Assembly: GCA_021811865.1 (NCBI GenBank)
Contig: JAKAQB010000005.1
Span: 39,449-103,448 of the forward strand
Direction of reading: 5' to 3'
DNA length: 64,000 nucleotides
Origin: Actinomycetes bacterium
Lineage (GTDB): Bacteria; Actinomycetota; Acidimicrobiia; Acidimicrobiales; Palsa-688
The position numbers were made by a program, and so were the translations under genes. Every line of letters begins with the position of its first letter. Positions within the stretch are counted from its first letter, which is position 1. The notes under the pieces are model-generated. The model did no database searches, was not told the origin of the DNA, and worked only from the letters and a program-made list of their open reading frames with translations. Below are positions 4,787 through 55,425 of this stretch, piece after piece.

Positions 4787-6991
4787 ATGGCGCGCGACCC
4801 GAAGTACGACGTCCTCTTCGAGCCCGTCAAGATCGGCCCGAAGACGCTCCGCAACCGCTTCTACCAGGTCCCCCACTGCATCGGCGCCGGCTCCGAGAAG
4901 CCCGGCTTCCAGGCCTACCACAGAGGCATCAAGGCCGAGGGGGGATGGGCGGCGTGCTGCACCGAGTACTGCTCGATCAGCCCGGAGTCCGACGACACCA
5001 TGCGCGTGTCCGCCCGCATCTGGGACGACGGCGACGTGCAGAACCTGGCGGCGATGTGCGACAGGCTGCACCAGTACGGGGCGTTGGCGGGGATCGAACT
5101 TTGGTACGGCGGCCCGCACGCCCCCTGCATGGAGACCCGCGACCAGCCGCGGGGGCCGTCGCAGATCGCGTCGGAGTTTGAGGCGAACATCTACCCGCGC
5201 TACGCCGACAAGGACGACATCCAGCTGCTGCAGCGGTACTACGTGGACGCGGCCATCCGGGCGCGGGAGGCCGGCTTCGACATCGTCTACGTCTACGGCG
5301 CCCACAGCTACCTGCCGCTGCAGTTCCTCTCGCCGTGGGCCAACAAGCGCACCGACGAGTACGGGGGCAGCTTCGAGAACCGGGCGCGGTTCTGGAAGGA
5401 GACCCTCGAGAAGGTGCGGGAAGCCGTCGGCGACGACTGCGCCATCGCCTCCCGCTTCGCTGTCGACACCCTCTACGGACCCGCCGGCGTCGAGCTCGAG
5501 AAGGACGGCCTGCGCTTCGTCGAGCACGTGGACCACCTCGTCGACCTCTGGGACCTCACCGTCGGCGACATCGCCGAATGGGGCCAGAACGCCGGACCGT
5601 CGCGCTTCTTCGAGGAGAACCACGAGAAGCCCTACACCGGGCGCATCAAGCCGGGCAACCACACCAACAAGCCGGTCGTCGGCGTCGGGCGGATCGTCAG
5701 CCCGGACACGATGGTGGCGATCATCCAGTCGGGCCAGTTCGACATCATCGGTGCCGCCCGCCCGTCGATCTCCGACCCGTTCCTGCCCAAGAAGATCGAG
5801 GAGGGCCGCCTCGACGACATCCGGGAGTGCATCGGGTGCAACCAGTGCATCTCCCGATGGGAGATCGGAGGTCCGCCGATGGTCTGCACCCAGAACGCCA
5901 CCGCCGGCGAGGAGTACCGCCGGGGCTGGCACCCGGAGAGCTTCCACCGGGCCGCCAACGCCGACAAGGGCGTGCTCGTCGTCGGCGCCGGGCCGGCGGG
6001 CATGGAATGCGCCATGATCCTCGCCAAGCGCGAGATGTCGGCGGTCCACCTCGTGGAGGCCCTGCCCGAGATCGGCGGCAACGTCAACTGGGTGTCGACG
6101 CTCGGTCACTCGGACGGCAAGGAGAACATCTTCCGGGGCACCGCACGTGGCCTCGGCGACTGGAAGCGGGTCGTCAACTACCGCCAGGTCCAGCTCGACA
6201 AGCTGAAGAACGTGGAAGTCCACACAGGTTCGCGGCTGACCGCGGAGCAGGCCAGGGAGTACGGGGCCGAGATCGTGATCGTCGCCACCGGCTGCCACTG
6301 GGCGACCGACGGCCTCAACAGCGTCACCCACGAGACCATCCCCGGCGTCGACACGGCCAACAACGACTGGCAGCTGACCCCGGAGGACGTCGCCCTCGGC
6401 CGCAAAGATGTCGGCCACCGGGTTCTGATCATCGACAACGAGGCGTACTTCATGGGCGTCACCCTCGCCCAGAAGCTCGCCGGCGAGGGCCACCAGGTGC
6501 ACCTGCTCACCCAGCGGGCATCGGTCGGCCAGTACATGGACTACACGCTCGAGGCCCCGATGATGCACCGGGAGCTGCACCGCCTCCACGTGGACATGCA
6601 CACCGAGACCCACATCGAGCGCGTCGACCCGGGGGTCGTCACCGCCTACAACATCTGGGACCCGTCCCACAAGGAGCGGTTCGAGGTGGACACGGTGGTG
6701 CTCTGCACGGCACGGGTGTCCAACGACTCGCTCTACCGGGAGCTCAAGGCCGGCAAGGAGGAGCTGGCGGCGGCCGGCGTCGAGTCCCTCTACCTCATCG
6801 GTGACGCCTCGGCTCCGCGGATGATCGTCGACTGCATCTTCGACGGGCACCGCCTCGCCCGCGAGATCGACAGCGCCAACCCTGCCATCCCCCTGCCGTT
6901 CATCCGGGAGCGGCGCTTGTGGGGCGCCACCTCCAACAAGGAGTTCGAGGTGCAGCTCCTGGCGCAGTCGGACATGGCGCCGATGGCGTGA
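4787..6991 (+). CDS. tmd: Trimethylamine dehydrogenase (FMN / 4Fe-4S / ADP-binding flavoprotein)
   Basis: This 734-residue protein is colinear with TMADH of Methylophilus W3A1, which oxidises trimethylamine to dimethylamine and formaldehyde and reduces ETF. The N-terminal old-yellow-enzyme barrel carries Cys31 (equivalent to the 6-S-cysteinyl-FMN Cys30, motif FYQVPHC), Tyr61 (Tyr60; dimethylamine dehydrogenase has Gln there), and Tyr170 and His173 (Tyr169/His172). It also has the substrate-bowl tryptophan Trp265 and the Trp after the iron-sulfur cysteines. The 4Fe-4S motif CIGCNQC...C lies near residues 348-367. An ADP-binding Rossmann domain (VVGAGPAGME) and a second nucleotide-like domain follow. 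The triad Asp267 is replaced by Asn268. AGGAGG lies 12 nt before ATG 4787. The etfBA pair 6 kb away supplies the expected acceptor. Confidence 0.93.
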   Translation: MARDPKYDVLFEPVKIGPKTLRNRFYQVPHCIGAGSEKPGFQAYHRGIKAEGGWAACCTEYCSISPESDDTMRVSARIWDDGDVQNLAAMCDRLHQYGALAGIELWYGGPHAPCMETRDQPRGPSQIASEFEANIYPRYADKDDIQLLQRYYVDAAIRAREAGFDIVYVYGAHSYLPLQFLSPWANKRTDEYGGSFENRARFWKETLEKVREAVGDDCAIASRFAVDTLYGPAGVELEKDGLRFVEHVDHLVDLWDLTVGDIAEWGQNAGPSRFFEENHEKPYTGRIKPGNHTNKPVVGVGRIVSPDTMVAIIQSGQFDIIGAARPSISDPFLPKKIEEGRLDDIRECIGCNQCISRWEIGGPPMVCTQNATAGEEYRRGWHPESFHRAANADKGVLVVGAGPAGMECAMILAKREMSAVHLVEALPEIGGNVNWVSTLGHSDGKENIFRGTARGLGDWKRVVNYRQVQLDKLKNVEVHTGSRLTAEQAREYGAEIVIVATGCHWATDGLNSVTHETIPGVDTANNDWQLTPEDVALGRKDVGHRVLIIDNEAYFMGVTLAQKLAGEGHQVHLLTQRASVGQYMDYTLEAPMMHRELHRLHVDMHTETHIERVDPGVVTAYNIWDPSHKERFEVDTVVLCTARVSNDSLYRELKAGKEELAAAGVESLYLIGDASAPRMIVDCIFDGHRLAREIDSANPAIPLPFIRERRLWGATSNKEFEVQLLAQSDMAPMA

Positions 6992-45925: not shown

Positions 45926-46681
45926 GTGCGGAGCGACCACTATCCGGTCAGCCTGGTGGTGGCCGGCCAGCCCTGCTTGGTGGTCGGGGGCGGGTCGGTG
46001 GCAGTCCGCAAGGCCGAGGGGCTCGCCCGGAGCGGGGCTCGGGTGACGGTCGTCGCCCCCGAGGTCGACCCGGCGATCGAGTTGCTTCCTGTCGCCGTCG
46101 AGCGGCGCCCCTATCGGCCAGGCGAAGCGGGCCGCTACCGGCTGGTGATCACCGCCACCGGAGTCCCCGAGGTGGATACCTCGGTGGCCGCCGACGCCGA
46201 AGCGGCGGGGGTGTGGGTGAACAGCGCCGACGACGCCGCTCACTGCACCTTCCTCCTGCCCGCCGTCCACCGGGACGGGCCGGTGACGGTGGCCGTGTCG
46301 ACGGGCGGGGCCAGCCCGGCCCTGGCCACGTGGCTCCGCCGCCGGCTCGCCGAGGCGTGCGGCGAAGGGCTGGGAGTGCTGGCCGAGGCGCTGGAGGAGG
46401 CCCGGCGCAAGCTCCAGGCGTCCGGACGGCCGACTGGATCGCTCGACTGGCACGCCATCCTCGACGGCCCGCTGACGAGGCTTGTCCTGGACGGCAGACT
46501 TGACGAGGCCCGCAGGCTCCTCGAGGACCTCCAAACAGCTCTCGCTACCTGTGACGACGTGGAAGGGCCGGAGGAGCCAGGAGGGACGGAAGCTCCAGAG
46601 GAGCCAGGAGGGACGGAAGCTCCAGAGGGACCGGCAGGGTCGGCAATGAGGCCGCGGCCGTCGCGTTGTTTGGGCAGTTGA
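45926..46681 (+). CDS. Precorrin-2 dehydrogenase / sirohydrochlorin ferrochelatase (CysG N-domain type)
   Basis: The product has 251 residues from GTG 45926, which begins at the family's conserved DHYPVSLVVAGQPCLVVGGG strand. The NAD-binding GGGSVAVRKAEGL motif and the GASPALATWLRRRLAE helix match CysG/SirC/Met8. It makes siroheme for the divergent reductase. The C-terminal ~35 residues are low complexity and come from a duplicated 27-bp unit. The stop codon lies inside a long inverted repeat. Confidence 0.85.
   Translation: MRSDHYPVSLVVAGQPCLVVGGGSVAVRKAEGLARSGARVTVVAPEVDPAIELLPVAVERRPYRPGEAGRYRLVITATGVPEVDTSVAADAEAAGVWVNSADDAAHCTFLLPAVHRDGPVTVAVSTGGASPALATWLRRRLAEACGEGLGVLAEALEEARRKLQASGRPTGSLDWHAILDGPLTRLVLDGRLDEARRLLEDLQTALATCDDVEGPEEPGGTEAPEEPGGTEAPEGPAGSAMRPRPSRCLGS
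46571..46624 (+). repeat. Two direct 27-bp repeats at the 3' end of the siroheme synthase gene
   Basis: Two exact head-to-tail copies starting at 46571 and 46598, each encoding EEPGGTEAP, followed by a partial third. They extend the C-terminus beyond the conserved domain. Confidence 0.85.
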
Positions 46682-46713
46682 CCGCGATAATCGCAGACAA
46701 CTGCCCAAACAAC
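46665..46713. terminator. Long perfect hairpin at the siroheme synthase stop codon
   Basis: GTTGTTTGGGCAGTTG (46665-46680) and its exact complement (46698-46713) form a 16-bp stem around a 17-nt loop. The loop itself contains the short palindrome GCGAT-A-ATCGC. No T-run follows, as is usual for high-G+C terminators. The stem begins inside the last codons of the gene. It could also be a protein-binding site. Confidence 0.6.
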
Positions 46714-46760
46714 GTACCGGAGCCCGCCCTCCTTCCGGTATGGACCTATACCTCCCATCC

Positions 46761-46848
46761 GAGTGGGCGAGTGGGCGAGTGGGCGAGTGGGCGAGTGGGC
46801 GAGTGGGCGAGTGGGCATGTGGGCATGTGGGCATGTGGGCGAGTGGGC
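46761..46848 (+). repeat. Eleven tandem octamers GAGTGGGC / ATGTGGGC
   Basis: Seven GAGTGGGC, three ATGTGGGC and one more GAGTGGGC run head to tail without spacers. Together with the hairpin at 46665 this fills most of the 384-bp gap between the siroheme synthase and the PNPOx gene. The unit has no spacer structure, so it is not CRISPR. The remaining ~215 bp up to 47065 hold only a GGAGGAG ribosome-binding site and nothing else I can name. Confidence 0.9.
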
Positions 46849-47065
46849 ACACCCGATGCGCTCAGGCGCTCCCTGGGGGAAGGCGACGTGGTGTACCCGT
46901 GTGTTGAGCGCCGCAGCGACCCCAGCGATCCTGCGACCAGGCGATCCGCTGACCTCGGGAGATCCTGCAGGCTGGTTGGTCGGGCATCCTCGAGCCGCCG
47001 GCCGGCGCCTCCGGGGTGCAAGACTCCCACCGTCCCTTGCACCCATCCAGGAGGAGCATGCTCCC

Positions 47066-47548
47066 GTGGTAGAACAACCCGCCCCGACCGTTCCCGAAGG
47101 CCCGACGAACCTGCGATGGGAGGACGTGGCCGCCCGCCTCGCGGCGGCCCGCAGCTACTGGTTGGCGACCGTCGGTCCCGACGCGGCACCGCATGCCGTC
47201 CCGGTGTGGGGCGCGGTGGTCGGCGATGCCCTGCACTTCTACACCCAGCGCAGCACCGCCAAGGCCCACCACATCTCCGCCAACCCCCGTGTCGCTGTCC
47301 ACTTGGAGAGCACCGAGGACGTCCTCGTCGTCTACGGCGAGCTCGAGGACCTCGGGCTGCCAGCGGGCAACCCCGCCGTGCTGGCCGCCCTCGACGCCAA
47401 GTACCCAGACCCCGACGACGCCGCCTACCTGCCCTCCCACGAGCCGGCGTACGACGTCATCTTCCGCCTGCGGCCCGCTCGGGCCCTGGCGTGGAGCCTC
47501 GCCGACTTCGACGGCTCCCAGGCGAGGTGGAGCGCCGGCGCCAGCTGA
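47066..47548 (+). CDS. Pyridoxamine 5'-phosphate oxidase-family (flavin/F420-binding) protein
   Basis: The product has 160 residues from GTG 47066, with GGAGGAG 10 nt upstream. The split-barrel fold is indicated by YWLATVGPDAAPHAVPVWGAV (in part, residues ~30-50), FYTQRSTAKAHHISANPRVAVH and a C-terminal FRLRPARALAW strand. This branch includes FMN- and F420-dependent reductases; which cofactor is used cannot be told from sequence. It is convergent with the folD at 47568. Confidence 0.75.
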   Translation: MVEQPAPTVPEGPTNLRWEDVAARLAAARSYWLATVGPDAAPHAVPVWGAVVGDALHFYTQRSTAKAHHISANPRVAVHLESTEDVLVVYGELEDLGLPAGNPAVLAALDAKYPDPDDAAYLPSHEPAYDVIFRLRPARALAWSLADFDGSQARWSAGAS

Positions 47549-49489: not shown

Positions 49490-50320
49490 TCAGGCGGCGG
49501 GCTGCCCGGCAGGGCCGGGGTCCTCGAACGAGACGGGAGCGTCGAAGGCGGCCCGGCGGGAGGCACGCCGGAAGGCGGCGAGCAGCACCGGCCCGAGGGT
49601 CAGGAGGGCGACGACGTCGGTGATCGCCCGGCCGGTGTCCCACCCGAGCGAGGTCGTGGCGTCGAAGACCACGTACCTGCGGAGGTTGGCCAGCAGGGGC
49701 GCACCCGGCAGGTAGGCGATCGAGCTGTGGGGGTCGAGTGCGAACGGCCAGAACGACAGGTTGACGGCCAGCCCGTAGGCGTACCCGGAAACCACCCCGT
49801 AGCCGGCGAGGAGGACCCGCTCCCAGCGGGGCGGCACACGCGGGAGCAGGCCGGCGCCCATCCCCACCCAAGCCGACGCGAACATCTGATAGGGCATCCA
49901 CGGCCCGACGCCGCCGGTCAGGAGCGCGGACGTGAAGATCGTGACGCTGCCGAGGGCGAAGCCGAAGCCGGGCCCGAACACCCGCCCGGCGACGATCATG
50001 AGGAAGAACACGGTCTCGATCCCCGCCGTGCCGGCGCCGAGCGGGCGAAGCGCAGCCCCGACGGCGGCGAGCACCCCGAGCAGGGCGACGGCCTTGGAGT
50101 CCATGCCCCCGTCGGCCAGCTCGCTCAGCACGACGGCCAGGACGAGGAGCAGCAAGGCGCCGAACATCAGCGGGGGGACCAGGCTCTCTCCGAGCCGCCC
50201 GGGGGCGACGAAGAAGGGCCAGCCGAAGGCAACCGCTCCGAACCCCGAAGCCAGGCCGATGGCCGCCCGGCTGCGCCCCGCCACCGGGAGCGCCGCCGCC
50301 GCCGGCGGCACGCGGCTCAC
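49490..50320 (-). CDS. cbrT: ECF transporter S component, probably cobalamin-specific
   Basis: The product has 276 residues with about six membrane helices. GTG 50320 overlaps the ATPase stop (GTGA). Conserved-looking elements are RPLGAGTAGIETVFFLMIVAGRVFG in part (residues ~90-115) and LTGGVGPWMPYQMFASAWVGMGAG in part (~135-155), characteristic of the CblT/CbrT-type S component. It captures the vitamin; specificity for cobalamin follows from the riboswitch heading the operon. Confidence 0.82.
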   Translation of the reverse strand: MSRVPPAAAALPVAGRSRAAIGLASGFGAVAFGWPFFVAPGRLGESLVPPLMFGALLLLVLAVVLSELADGGMDSKAVALLGVLAAVGAALRPLGAGTAGIETVFFLMIVAGRVFGPGFGFALGSVTIFTSALLTGGVGPWMPYQMFASAWVGMGAGLLPRVPPRWERVLLAGYGVVSGYAYGLAVNLSFWPFALDPHSSIAYLPGAPLLANLRRYVVFDATTSLGWDTGRAITDVVALLTLGPVLLAAFRRASRRAAFDAPVSFEDPGPAGQPAA

Positions 50321-51939
50321 GCCCTCACCGCCAGAGCGCCGGCGACCTGGTCGACGGTGAGGAACGCAAGCGGGGCGAGGATCTTGGCCACCTGCGGAGC
50401 GAAGGCGGGTGACGCTGTCACCACGCCGGCGGTCGCACCGTCCGCCACCACCTCTCCGGTGGCCATCACGATCACGCGGTCGGCGACAGCGGCCACGAAC
50501 TCCACGTCGTGGGTCGCCACCAGGATCGCCCTGCCCTCGCCTGCGAGCTGGCGCAGGACGCCGGCGAGGGCCGCCTTGGCTGCGTAGTCGAGGCCGCGGG
50601 TCGGCTCGTCCAACAGCACGACGCCCGGCCCGGCGGACAGCTGGATGGCGAGGGCCAGCGCGAGCCGCTGGCCCTCGGACAGGTCCCGTGGGTGGGCGCC
50701 GCCGTCGACGCCGGGCGCGAACTGATCCAGCAGCCCCGACGCGGTCCCCGCTGCGGCCGGGCCGCAGGCTCGGTCGGCCTCGGCGCATTCGGCGTCCACG
50801 GTGTCCAGGTAGAGGAGATCCGCCGGGTCCTGGGGTACCAGGCCCACGACGCGGCGAGCCTCCAGCGGTCGGAGCCGCGACGGGTCGCGGCCGCCTACGT
50901 CGACACGGCCCGCCTGGCGCCCCCCGCTGCCCTGGAGCGCCCACAGCAGCGACGACTTGCCCGAGCCGTTGCGCCCCATCATCCCGGCCACCTCCCCCGA
51001 ACGTAGGTGGAGGGACACCTCGCGCACGGCAACGACCGCCCCGTGGCGGACGGTGACCCCCTGCGCCGACAAGGCTGGCGCGGCGCGGGGACTTTGGGCG
51101 GGCTCCCAATCGCCGGCGACGGATCGGCGCTCCAGCCGGGCCCGCAACGGTGCCGCCTGCCTGCGGGCGTCGCGCACCGACAGCGGGAGCGGGTCCCACC
51201 CGGCCAGCCGCCCCAGCTCGACGACCGGCGGGGCCACCCCCGACGCCACCAGCACCTCTGCCGGCGGCCCGCAGCGCACCCCGCCCCCGCCCAGCACCTC
51301 CACCACACGGTCGGCGTACTGGACGACGCGCTCGAGGCGGTGTTCGGCGAGCACCACCGTCATCCCGAGGTCGTGCACCAGTCGTGTGACCACGGCCAGC
51401 ACCTCCTCGGCCGCCGGGGGGTCCAGGGCCGAGGTCGGCTCGTCGAGGACGAGCACCGACGGGTGTGCCGCGAGGACCGACCCGATGGCGACCCGCTGCT
51501 GCTCCCCGCCCGAGAGGGTGTCGAGGGACCGCTCCCGCAGCGGAGCAATCCCGAGGACGTCGAGGGTCTCCTCGACCCGCTTGCGCATCGTTGCGGCCGG
51601 CACGCCCAACTGCTCCATGCCGTAGGCCAGCTCCTCCTCGACCGTGTCGGTGACGAAGCCCGCCCGTGGGTCCTGGCCGACCACGCCGACGACGTCGGCC
51701 AGCTCCCGCGGAGGGTGGGTGCGGGTGTCCCGCCCGGCGACGACGACCCGGCCGGCGAGGGTGCCCCCGGTGAAGTGTGGCACCAGGCCGTTGATCGCCT
51801 GCAGCAGCGTGGACTTGCCGGCGCCGGTCCGCCCGACGACCAGCACCAGCTCCCCCTCCGCCAAGTCGAGGCAGACATCGCGGAGGACGGGCGCGCCGGC
51901 GCCGGCGTAGGTGACGCTCACATGCTCGAAGCGGATCAC
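50317..51939 (-). CDS. ECF transporter ATPase with two fused nucleotide-binding domains
   Basis: The product has 540 residues. The first ABC domain has Walker A GRTGAGKST, signature LSGGEQQR and Walker B VLVLDEPTSALD. The second has GRNGSGKSS, LSEGQRLAL and VVLLDEPTRGLD. A linker of about 60 residues joins them, so EcfA and EcfA' are one polypeptide. GTG 51939 overlaps the EcfT stop. It energises the T/S complex. Confidence 0.9.
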   Translation of the reverse strand: MIRFEHVSVTYAGAGAPVLRDVCLDLAEGELVLVVGRTGAGKSTLLQAINGLVPHFTGGTLAGRVVVAGRDTRTHPPRELADVVGVVGQDPRAGFVTDTVEEELAYGMEQLGVPAATMRKRVEETLDVLGIAPLRERSLDTLSGGEQQRVAIGSVLAAHPSVLVLDEPTSALDPPAAEEVLAVVTRLVHDLGMTVVLAEHRLERVVQYADRVVEVLGGGGVRCGPPAEVLVASGVAPPVVELGRLAGWDPLPLSVRDARRQAAPLRARLERRSVAGDWEPAQSPRAAPALSAQGVTVRHGAVVAVREVSLHLRSGEVAGMMGRNGSGKSSLLWALQGSGGRQAGRVDVGGRDPSRLRPLEARRVVGLVPQDPADLLYLDTVDAECAEADRACGPAAAGTASGLLDQFAPGVDGGAHPRDLSEGQRLALALAIQLSAGPGVVLLDEPTRGLDYAAKAALAGVLRQLAGEGRAILVATHDVEFVAAVADRVIVMATGEVVADGATAGVVTASPAFAPQVAKILAPLAFLTVDQVAGALAVRA

Positions 51940-53147
51940 GGCGGCACCGCCGGGGACAGCGACGGGGCGGGCGCGCCCGCCGGTGGCGGGGGTGAGGCGG
52001 GGGCGGCGGCCCGTGCCCGGTGCTCGCCCCCGGGTCCGGCGGTTACGGCACGCCGGGGTGGCGGGGCGGCGACAGCAGCGAGGGCGGCGACCACGACGGC
52101 GACGGCCGGGATCAGCGGCACCGACGGCCAGGCCGGCGGGTCGGTCGGCGGGTTGAAACCGCTGGCGCCTGCTCCGAGGCCGGCGGCCAGGACGGCGGCG
52201 GGCACCAGGCCTGCGACACAGACCGCCCACTCCGGCCACCGCCAGGCGTCGGGCCGGTAGGAGCTGCGGCGCACCCGCCGGCCTCCGAGCGCAAGGCCGG
52301 CCACGCAGGCGGCGATGCCCACCGCCAGCGTCATGACCTCCACCCACCCCGGTCCGGCCGCGGCCAGGAGCCCGTAGGCGCCGACCGAGATCCCGACCAT
52401 GCCGCCGAGAAGACCGGCCGCGCCGAGCCGGCGGACCCGGGCCGGCGCCTCGCCGCGGCGCCCGTATCCTCGTGAGTCCATGGCGGCGGCCAGGTGGATG
52501 GAGCGCTCGAGCGCGTCTTCGAGGACCGGGACGGCCACGGCCCGCAGGCCGTGCAGCCCCCGGGCGGGGCGACCCCGCAGGCGCTGCGCACGCCGGGTCC
52601 GCTGCGCCGCCTCCACCAGCAGGGGGGCGACGCTCACCGCCACCACGACGGCCACCCCGACCTCGTACAACGCCCGGGGGAGCACCCGCAGCACCCGCCG
52701 GGGGTTGGCGAGCGTGTTGGCCGCGCCGACACATGCGATCAGGCCGGCGAGCACGAGCCCGCCGTAGACGGCTGCCAGCATCTCCTGGGCAGTGACCGGC
52801 CCGCCGACCTGCACCCCCGCCGCCCAGGACGGCAGCGGGACCCGGGGCAGGCGGAACAACACCGCCTGGCCGGCGGTGACGTCCCCGCCGAAGACGGACC
52901 GCAGCACGACCCGCACGGCGATCACGACCGCGCCCATGACGAGGTAGTACTTCAGTCCCCGGGCCCACGGCGCGTCGCCCCGCCGGCTCGCCACGACCAC
53001 TCCGAGCACGGAGACGACCAGGGCCACCAGGATCGGGTTGGTCGTCCGGGTGATGGCGACGCCCAGACCGAGCGCCCAAACCCACCACGCCACCGGGTGG
53101 AGGTCCCGCGGCACGCGCCCGCTCCACCACCGGCTCATCCCGCTCAC
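51936..53147 (-). CDS. ECF transporter transmembrane T component
   Basis: The product has 403 residues with about eight hydrophobic helices. The cytoplasmic coupling motif appears as AAMDSRGYGRRGEAP, the usual A-R-G-type EcfT signature. The Pro/Ala-rich C-terminal tail is long. GTG 53147 overlaps the SCO2322-like stop (GTGA). It couples the ATPase to the S component. Confidence 0.85.
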   Translation of the reverse strand: MSGMSRWWSGRVPRDLHPVAWWVWALGLGVAITRTTNPILVALVVSVLGVVVASRRGDAPWARGLKYYLVMGAVVIAVRVVLRSVFGGDVTAGQAVLFRLPRVPLPSWAAGVQVGGPVTAQEMLAAVYGGLVLAGLIACVGAANTLANPRRVLRVLPRALYEVGVAVVVAVSVAPLLVEAAQRTRRAQRLRGRPARGLHGLRAVAVPVLEDALERSIHLAAAMDSRGYGRRGEAPARVRRLGAAGLLGGMVGISVGAYGLLAAAGPGWVEVMTLAVGIAACVAGLALGGRRVRRSSYRPDAWRWPEWAVCVAGLVPAAVLAAGLGAGASGFNPPTDPPAWPSVPLIPAVAVVVAALAAVAAPPPRRAVTAGPGGEHRARAAAPASPPPPAGAPAPSLSPAVPP

Positions 53148-54043
53148 GCGGCCCGCCTCCGCCGCCGGGCCACCACCCCGGCGCCGGCGGCGAGCACGGC
53201 GACGGCAGCAGCGCCGGCGATGAGCCCCGCCGGCGAGCCCCGGCTCCCACCGCTTCGTGGGCCGGTGCCGGCGGCGGCATCCACGATGCGGGTCGTGGTC
53301 GTAGTCGTGGTGGTCGCCGCTCCCGCTGGCCGCCCGGTTGTCGTCGCCGGGTTCGGAGCGGTGGCGGGTGGCCGGGTGGTGGCGGGTGGCCGGGTGGTGG
53401 TCGCTGGCCGGTCCGGGGCGGTGGTCACCGGTGGGGCGGTGGTCGCCGGTGGGGGGGTGGTGGTCGCCGGTGGGGGGGTGGTCGCCGGTGGGGCGGTGGT
53501 GGGTGGGCGGCTGCGCAGTCGGGTCGGCGGGACAGCCGGCGGGCGGCCCGCCCCGAACTCCCACGCCTCGACGCTCCCGGCGGCCGGCCTGAACGTGGCA
53601 GCGCCGGTCGGGCTGTAAGCCCACCTCGACTGGCCGGCGTCGGCGTACCAGAACGACCAGTAGGCCGTCGCCGGCGGAGTGGCGACGCACGGGTCGGAGG
53701 AGGGGGTCGGCCGCTCGCTGGACGACCCCTTGCTGGCAAGCCCGATCCGGCACACGAAGGCGCTGCCGCTGGCCTCGTCCCCGGCGGTCAGGAACCCCGC
53801 CGCGTGCATGGCAGCCATGGCGTCGGCGGGCTGCTCGGAGCAGCCTCTCACGATCGGGCCGCCCCAGTGGCCGAAGTCGACCGCCACGAGCACCCCGGCG
53901 GTCGTGGTGCAGTCCGCCACCGGGGTGAGGCCGGCGCCGCCGGGTGAGGGCGTTGCCGACGCCGGCCTCACCCCCCCGGCGAGCAGCCAGCCTGCGGCGA
54001 CGAAGGCGAGCAGCGAGGCCAGGCGCCGGGGTGATCCGCTCAA
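53144..54043 (-). CDS. SCO2322-like anchored surface protein (transcobalamin beta-domain-like)
   Basis: The product has 299 residues from TTG 54043. A signal peptide (residues ~1-30) precedes a small beta-rich domain with cysteines and the segment AYWSFWYADAGQSRWAYSP then VEAWEFGAGRPP. This resembles the DUF4430/transcobalamin C-terminal pattern of an aromatic W-x-F-Y strand followed by a W-x-F/Y strand. A Thr/Pro stalk of ~85 residues and a C-terminal membrane helix with an Arg cluster follow. It is probably tethered to the outer face of the membrane next to the ECF importer it is co-translated with. A B12-binding role is inferred. Confidence 0.7.
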   Translation of the reverse strand: MSGSPRRLASLLAFVAAGWLLAGGVRPASATPSPGGAGLTPVADCTTTAGVLVAVDFGHWGGPIVRGCSEQPADAMAAMHAAGFLTAGDEASGSAFVCRIGLASKGSSSERPTPSSDPCVATPPATAYWSFWYADAGQSRWAYSPTGAATFRPAAGSVEAWEFGAGRPPAVPPTRLRSRPPTTAPPATTPPPATTTPPPATTAPPVTTAPDRPATTTRPPATTRPPATAPNPATTTGRPAGAATTTTTTTTRIVDAAAGTGPRSGGSRGSPAGLIAGAAAVAVLAAGAGVVARRRRRAA

Positions 54044-54051
54044 CGGACCAA

Positions 54052-55188
54052 CTAGCAGTGCTCCACCGGGAGCTCGGAGGATGCCGGGCCCGGCCTCACC
54101 GGGTAGGGCACCTGCGCCGCGGCGGGGATGGCCTGGATGGTGGCGTACAGGTTGGGGCCGGCTGCGCCCGGGTACCGGTAAGCGCCACGGGCGAAGGACG
54201 GCGCCCCGCAGCGGAACTGGAAGGCGGCCAGGCCGGTCAGCGCGTCGTGCCCGTTGCGGCGGGTGACGGAGAGGTGGCGCAGCGCCAGGAGTGCCTGGGC
54301 GACGACCGCCGTCGAGTCCGGGTCGGCGGGCTGGGCGGCGGAGTCAGTGCCGTAGTAGCCGAACCCGCCGCTCGGGTACTGGGCGCGACGGAAGAAGGGC
54401 AGGGGGTCGTGCCGGGGCGACATCCCCGTGGCGACCAGCCCTTCGACGGCAAGGGCGGTCGAGTTCGTGTCGGGGCCCTGGAACTTGGCCGGGTCCGGTG
54501 CTACGCATGGAGCGGGGGAGGACCGGTAGGACTCCCAGCCTCCGCCGTAGCACTGCTGGCGGAGCAACCAGCCGGCGCCCGGGCGGTTGGGCTCGCCCGC
54601 GGCGGCAAGGGCGAGCAGCGACAGGCCCTGGGTGTAGGCGGAGGAGTACGTCGGCGCCGCCGGGGAGCCGAAGAGCCCCGCATCGGGCCCGCTGTGCGCC
54701 TGGGTGGCGAGCAGCCGCGCGACGAGGTCGTTCGCGTGAGCCGTGCCGCCGAACGCCCGGGGATCGGCCTTGGCGGCGACCGCAGCGAGGATCACCTCGG
54801 CCAGGCGGCCGGGGGAGTCGACGGTGCTGGTCCTGCTCGCCGGGATCCGGACGTAGGACTCGAAGTGCGACTCAAGGAAGCGGATCCCGGCGTGGACCTG
54901 CGCCGAGCCGGTGCGAGCCGCTGCGAGGGCGACGATGCCGAGGGGCAGGTAGTCGATGCCGGGCTCGCCGGCGGAGGCGGGGAGGTTGCCGTCGGGTTGG
55001 AAGTGGCGGGCGAGCCAGCCGGCAGCCAGGCTGGCGCCCACGGGGACGGGGCCGGGGGCTGCGGTTGCGGCGGCTGTGGCCGCGGGGCCGGGGGCTGCGG
55101 TTGCGGCGGCTGTGGCTGCGGGGCCGGCGGCTGCGATGAGGGCGGCCAGCGACACCCGGGCGGCGGTCAGGCGGGACATGAACGGCAC
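54052..55188 (-). CDS. Secreted alpha/alpha-barrel protein (prenyltransferase/squalene-oxidase repeat, transcobalamin alpha-domain-like)
   Basis: The product has 378 residues. GTG 55188 is chosen because GGAGAGGG lies 6-13 nt upstream; ATG 55179 is the alternative. A signal peptide and two Ala/Pro-rich repeats (TAAATAAPGP) lead into a toroid of helix pairs. Each pair is marked by an L-A-L-A-A motif after an acidic/Thr turn: AYTQGLSLLALAAAG, DTNSTALAVEGL, DPDSTAVVAQALLAL. The same fold makes up the alpha domain of human intrinsic factor and transcobalamin. It is the first gene after a cobalamin riboswitch and ahead of the ECF importer, so an extracellular B12 scavenging role is likely. Confidence 0.75.
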   Translation of the reverse strand: MPFMSRLTAARVSLAALIAAAGPAATAAATAAPGPAATAAATAAPGPVPVGASLAAGWLARHFQPDGNLPASAGEPGIDYLPLGIVALAAARTGSAQVHAGIRFLESHFESYVRIPASRTSTVDSPGRLAEVILAAVAAKADPRAFGGTAHANDLVARLLATQAHSGPDAGLFGSPAAPTYSSAYTQGLSLLALAAAGEPNRPGAGWLLRQQCYGGGWESYRSSPAPCVAPDPAKFQGPDTNSTALAVEGLVATGMSPRHDPLPFFRRAQYPSGGFGYYGTDSAAQPADPDSTAVVAQALLALRHLSVTRRNGHDALTGLAAFQFRCGAPSFARGAYRYPGAAGPNLYATIQAIPAAAQVPYPVRPGPASSELPVEHC

Positions 55189-55189
55189 T

Positions 55190-55425
55190 TGAACCCTCTC
55201 CGGAGACTGGAGATCCGAGAGGGGCAGAAGCTGACCGCGGATTCGGATCCCCGACTCCCGTGTTCCTCGACGGTGACAGGGTGGTATCGGCGCCGTCGAG
55301 TGCTCCGACTCGTGAGAGCCGACCGGGGTCGGTCTCACCTACGGTTGCGGGCCAGTGCCGGGATTGGACCGGACTTCCCTCTCGGGCGACGGGAGAGTGC
55401 GATGACGCTCCGTCCGGGCACGATA
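55190..55425 (-). ncRNA. Cobalamin (adenosylcobalamin-type) riboswitch
   Basis: On the - strand the leader contains GGGAAGTCCGGTCCAATCCC, CGGCACTGGCCCGCAACCG and, further on, the B12-box-like GAGTCGGAGCACTCGACGGC, in consensus order. The 3' end forms CCCTCTC (5', at 55217-55224) pairing with GAGAGGG (at 55194-55200), which is the ribosome-binding site of the barrel-protein gene. This indicates translational control: B12 binding should favour the SD-sequestering stem. It fills most of the gap to the divergent ABC gene at 55511. The exact 5' limit is uncertain. Confidence 0.88.

Follow-up and report, generated by a model that had tools for sequence, protein, structure and literature searches.

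A cobalamin-riboswitch operon of Actinomycetota that may encode a split transcobalamin-like capture pair ahead of an ECF importer

Could a bacterium divide the two folds of the animal B12 carriers between two genes and place both ahead of an importer? The question is raised by a 64,000-nt stretch from an Actinomycetes bacterium (GCA_021811865.1, contig JAKAQB010000005.1, positions 39,449 to 103,448), called here the window. Its minus strand from 55425 to 49490 carries a cobalamin riboswitch and then five genes: A, B, EcfT, EcfAA' and S, the last three forming an energy-coupling factor (ECF) module. We consider it likely that this operon serves to capture and import corrinoids under the control of B12, its role probably being to catch scarce B12. 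Gene order, riboswitch and recurrence are established, and the folds come from models.

55293..55425, minus strand: cobalamin riboswitch aptamer (RF00174 at 55425-55312; model R1 at 55379-55293)
54052..55188, minus strand: A, predicted secreted alpha/alpha-toroid protein, 378 aa, GTG start (open reading frame; N-terminal hydrophobic segment; sub-cut-off SCO2321_fam; toroid model of the fused homologue P0049)
53144..54043, minus strand: B, predicted membrane-anchored protein with a transcobalamin-type beta domain, 299 aa, TTG start (open reading frame, model, structural matches)
53528..53962, minus strand: beta domain of B, residues 28-172, the modelled stretch
53288..53513, minus strand: Thr/Pro-rich stalk of B, approximate limits from the translation
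53147..53224, minus strand: C-terminal membrane segment and Arg-rich tail of B, approximate limits (hydropathy 2.34 over 18 residues)
51936..53147, minus strand: EcfT (PF02361, CbiQ, 37.2 bits)
50317..51939, minus strand: EcfAA', two ABC ATPase domains in a single chain (PF00005, ABC_tran, two stretches)
49490..50320, minus strand: ECF S component with a putative corrinoid substrate (PF12822, 31.4 bits, cut-off 30.7)

Operon layout and riboswitch

A previous reading of this DNA, made from sequence only, had described the operon as a secreted A, an anchored B and EcfT-EcfAA'-S. All these genes are present on the minus strand, with Pfam support for T, AA' and S. Its statement that all of them have overlapping stops and starts was slightly wrong, because 8 nt separate A from B; 4-nt GTGA overlaps were found at the other three of the four junctions (B/T, T/AA' and AA'/S). 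T, two ATPase domains and S all lie within one operon, as in Group I ECF importers. Among 43 other EcfAA' sequences, the closest to that of the window came from L001, an Actinomycetes metagenome-assembled genome (MAG) (98% over 248 columns). A phmmer comparison of S with solved structures (E<=1) returned four rows, and CbrT was not among their names; the two highest places (E 0.09 and 0.11) went to a folate S component and to an S chain of uncharacterised type.

Neither A nor B matched a Pfam family at E<=1, and their NCBIfam scores were below the cut-offs (A against SCO2321_fam, 99.7 bits, cut-off 300; B against SCO2322_fam, 17.3 bits, cut-off 85). By hydropathy, A has a signal-like hydrophobic N-terminus. 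The N-terminus of B is signal-like too; further on, B carries a Thr/Pro stalk and, near its C-terminus, a membrane segment followed by an Arg tail. No C-terminal membrane segment was found in A, in agreement with the proposal that one chain is diffusible and the other tethered.

Related loci were collected by a contig scan of genomes, which gave 115 relatives; the best 80 were kept, and these are not independent, some being near-copies. Against RF00174 the riboswitch of the window scored 25.7 bits (E 1.9e-4 in 801 nt), short of the 31.5 bits required at gathering, and the whole-window Rfam scan gave nothing at gathering score. Yet R1, a covariance model trained on 28 of the related loci, neither the window nor L001 being one of them, matched the aptamer with 69.6 bits (E 9.8e-16), the runner-up site in 64 kb having 17.1 bits (E 0.012), so that the earlier claim of a cobalamin riboswitch was confirmed. 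The training loci, 28 of the 75 later matched by R1, were chosen with a pattern drawn from the cobalamin core and the window's own sequence.

R1 matched 75 of the 80 related loci, always on the same strand as A: no more than 402 nt 5' of the toroid gene in 73, ahead of a second A in L020, and ahead of a frame with a beta and then an alpha domain in L052. The five loci without a match (L005, L051, L066, L069 and L070) begin at most 100 nt from A. The Rfam gathering score for the B12 class (RF00174 or RF01689) was reached in 14 of 18 related loci, all except L005, L042, L047 and L049. In five of eight operon genomes, the operon switch was the sole RF00174 match (E<=0.01); in the genome of the nearest relative (G001), it was the weakest of three. 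The recurrence of the set in related loci makes chance a poor explanation, and a chance riboswitch was rejected. The switch would presumably shut the operon off with B12. RNA folding was no better than shuffles for either the expression platform (z -0.57) or the aptamer (z -0.75), and no expression mechanism is therefore claimed. One locus, L023, had a tandem pair of B12 riboswitch matches (6337-6413 and 6751-6833) ahead of its operon.

Folds of the two extracellular proteins

The animal B12 carriers transcobalamin, intrinsic factor and haptocorrin ranked first among solved structures, both for the modelled beta domain of the window's B and for the model of an intact A-B fusion homologue (P0049). 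The carriers have the same toroid and beta domain, in the order A then B seen in fused homologues. The toroid model comes from P0049, which stands in for the window's A; its identity to the window is 42% for A and 35% for B (alignment A4, which excludes A homologues with propeller-like tails, judged by eye). As modelled, B contains a beta-grasp domain like the C-terminal domain of transcobalamin, with five strands past the helix compared with three in the core fold given in the accessible part of PMC1796856, a comparison of strand count only; the transcobalamin-like SLBB clade is marked by a beta-hairpin inserted at this place. The structural mismatch that would have refuted the earlier reading did not occur, and these models favour its assignment of the two animal-carrier folds to the pair.

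At the sequence level, profile searches found no link to animal B12 carriers, and comparing A and B with solved structures by phmmer gave no lead. The homologue searches scored the roughly 8000 candidates with the largest number of shared words; alignment A1 holds 78 of 100 beta hits and alignment A2 48 of 97 alpha hits. Toroid-then-beta in one chain was found in 17 fused homologues. Unlike the animal carriers, the window has two genes, with one product diffusible and the other membrane-tethered, next to an importer. The system bears on the origin of the animal carriers, because single-chain toroid-then-beta proteins occur in actinobacteria.

The beta domain had also been assigned to the DUF4430 type. 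The model gives a transcobalamin-type fold, and DUF4430 genes stand in similar operons; the cut-off of Pfam DUF4430 (PF14478) was reached neither by B nor in the eight operon genomes. A profile comparison of the window-type beta domain with DUF4430 gave a score of 32.7 (95 columns, probability 71%); the highest of 30 shuffled controls reached 19.6, and the reversed control 9.7. PF14478 was detected in 51 of 296 Actinomycetota genomes. At least 25 of the 51 had an A-like match no more than 6 kb away on the contig and strand of DUF4430, downstream of it in 24 of 25; many of these matches are weak (E from 1e-8 down), and other toroids may be among them.

Six such loci were fetched (L111-L115 and L117), and all had the order RF00174 match (70.7-115.7 bits), DUF4430 gene 1.1-3 kb further on, EcfAA', A. 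Being picked among the at least 25 with an A-like match, they contain the toroid by selection; only switch, EcfAA', T and S are tests. With the window sequences as single queries, EcfT was found in three (L111, L112 and L117) and S in four (L111, L112, L113 and L117); in L114, a frame ahead of EcfAA' resembles EcfT by eye. The switch does not always adjoin DUF4430: in L111, an 848-aa secreted propeller-like frame (448-2994) separates the two. L116 has a window-type beta, T, AA', S and A, followed by a weak DUF4430-like match. Together with the recurrence of the operon and the riboswitch, these DUF4430 operons of similar make-up support the sequence-only reading.

Bacterial transcobalamin-like B12 scavenging is not new as a general idea. 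Burroughs et al. (2007) predicted bacterial transcobalamin-like domains, often fused to toroids and found in operons with CbiO/CbiQ, that would scavenge B12 (PMC1796856). As far as the accessible part of that paper goes, these SLBB proteins of the DUF4430 type share with the window the secreted beta-grasp domain, the toroid and the CbiO/CbiQ operons, and their hosts, low-GC Gram-positives, planctomycetes and euryarchaea, usually lack B12 synthesis. In the same part, an actinobacterial branch, the division into diffusible and tethered chains, the riboswitch and permuted forms are not described. In the open-licence literature (preprints and subscription papers were outside its scope), nothing was found on the SCO2321/SCO2322 families or the split form. 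The actinobacterial branch, the split design and the rearranged forms seem to be undescribed, and a function is suggested for two NCBI families so far named only by Streptomyces locus tags.

Recurrence, fusion and permutation

A beta domain was detected in 51 of the 80 loci and EcfT in 43, all of which have a beta domain (in two it was detected only once the beta profile had been widened for a second scan). The tethered-hook, free-lid design appears to be usual, because C-terminal membrane segments are common in beta frames (31/38 unpermuted, 13/14 permuted) and rare in A frames (4/37 unpermuted, 3/16 permuted; loci with beta, uncut frames).

No beta domain was detected in the other 29 loci, 17 of which have at least 2 kb downstream. 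Judged by eye, many of the 29 finish with FTG tails, IPT-like domains or repeats of propeller-like appearance, and 27 have the switch, the exceptions L051 and L070 being cut short of it. The 17 loci with longer downstream sequence (L014, L027, L034, L039, L042, L045, L049-L051, L053, L056, L058, L059, L067, L068, L070 and L076) are secreted toroid genes, nearly all switch-led, with no beta or importer detected in those 2 kb or more; here too, many close by eye with an IPT-like domain or an FTG tail.

Fused alpha-beta proteins together with another beta and importer were observed in L004, L066 and Amycolatopsis suaedae (G003; L109 and L110). In A. suaedae, the fused form and the split form with importer are each switch-led, and no importer was found within about 7 kb downstream of the fused form.

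In 16 of the 80 loci, A is circularly permuted, running through model positions of about 111-333 and then about 6-124. By a script rule, beta is also permuted in 13 of these (about 84-132, then 15-84); of the remaining three, L072 and L079 have the later beta half only, and L074 has beta 33-133 and then 17-83. Loci with permuted toroids, most with permuted beta too, are:

L041, L043, L047, L062, L063, L065, L069, L071-L075, L077-L080 and L108

L108 is Streptomyces avicenniae, where SCO2321_fam and SCO2322_fam are both permuted; the order A-B-T-AA'-S and the switch are the same as in the window, whose proteins score below both family cut-offs. The permutation label clusters in the EcfAA' tree (3 changes, compared with a shuffled mean of 10.6), which fits one or several origins. 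A tie between permutation and anchoring of A was dropped, given the similar membrane-segment counts of permuted and unpermuted A frames.

We tentatively propose, at somewhat less than even confidence, that Actinomycetota have an intrinsic factor naturally divided in two, in which the toroid would be a secreted "lid" and the beta domain a tethered "hook", the two pairing only when bridged by B12 as a natural B12-induced dimer. Some species would add a fused, untethered form as a free B12 scavenger, and lineages such as Streptomyces, Frankiaceae and Nanopelagicales would have permuted both halves, keeping operon and switch. Such a natural split pair may be joined by B12, and the host genus Streptomyces is genetically tractable.

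The titles of L073 (Rubrivirga), L070 (Bifidobacterium breve) and L025 (Acidobacteriota) are off the expected groups; their sequences group with actinobacterial MAG contigs, for L073 as seen in the EcfAA' tree, and the records are perhaps misbinned.

Ligand and rival readings

In the animal carriers, cobalamin sits between the two domains and is required for their association, according to the accessible parts of PMC5599065, PMC11107200 and PMC6257451. For the window, we infer cobalamin as ligand, ligand-induced pairing of A and B, an order of binding and hand-over to S. B, held at the membrane by its stalk, would present the transcobalamin-type beta domain, and A, secreted and unanchored, would serve as the alpha/alpha toroid. 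Cobalamin would be sandwiched between them as in the animal carriers, one half probably binding it first and the other closing over it. It would then be released close to EcfT-AA'-S and imported. This would add a capture step ahead of the ECF importer. ECF-CbrT has the same ECF module and one S component in a B12 context (PMC5997447); the accessible part of that paper mentions no extracellular capture protein, and the window's S, as noted, had no CbrT row.

The same machine could instead take cobinamide or another cobamide. We regard this as improbable, although ECF-CbrT also imports cobinamide (PMC5997447, accessible part) and nothing in the analysis fixes the lower ligand.

Less probable still is that A is an enzyme, terpene-cyclase-like or cobamide-altering, rather than a binder. 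DxDD is the catalytic acid motif of the squalene-hopene cyclase kind. It was absent from all 97 homologues, and a terpene cyclase was rejected on that ground; 80 of the 97 have GxDTN, aligned at the DxDD site (as DTN). The toroid of transcobalamin shares the same kind of fold (PMC1796856, accessible part).

B12-binding domains were found in all eight operon genomes tested. CobD/CbiB was found only in A. suaedae and CbiG_C in none, the MAGs being incomplete; most of these hosts would thus not use cobalt to make B12, and the lack of CobD/CbiB in seven genomes says nothing about late salvage steps. A B12-regulated cobalt importer of the CbiMNQO kind, to which the surface proteins A and B would be unrelated, is very unlikely and was rejected: EcfT does match CbiQ (PF02361) and B12 riboswitches regulate cobalt uptake as well, but S is PF12822 with CbiM not among its matches, CobD/CbiB and CbiG_C are as scarce as just given, and A and B match B12 carriers.

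Elsewhere, at 46666-47189 of the window, overlapping frames on both strands contain repeats (GRVGEWAS and HSPTRPLA among them), likely a short DNA tandem repeat.
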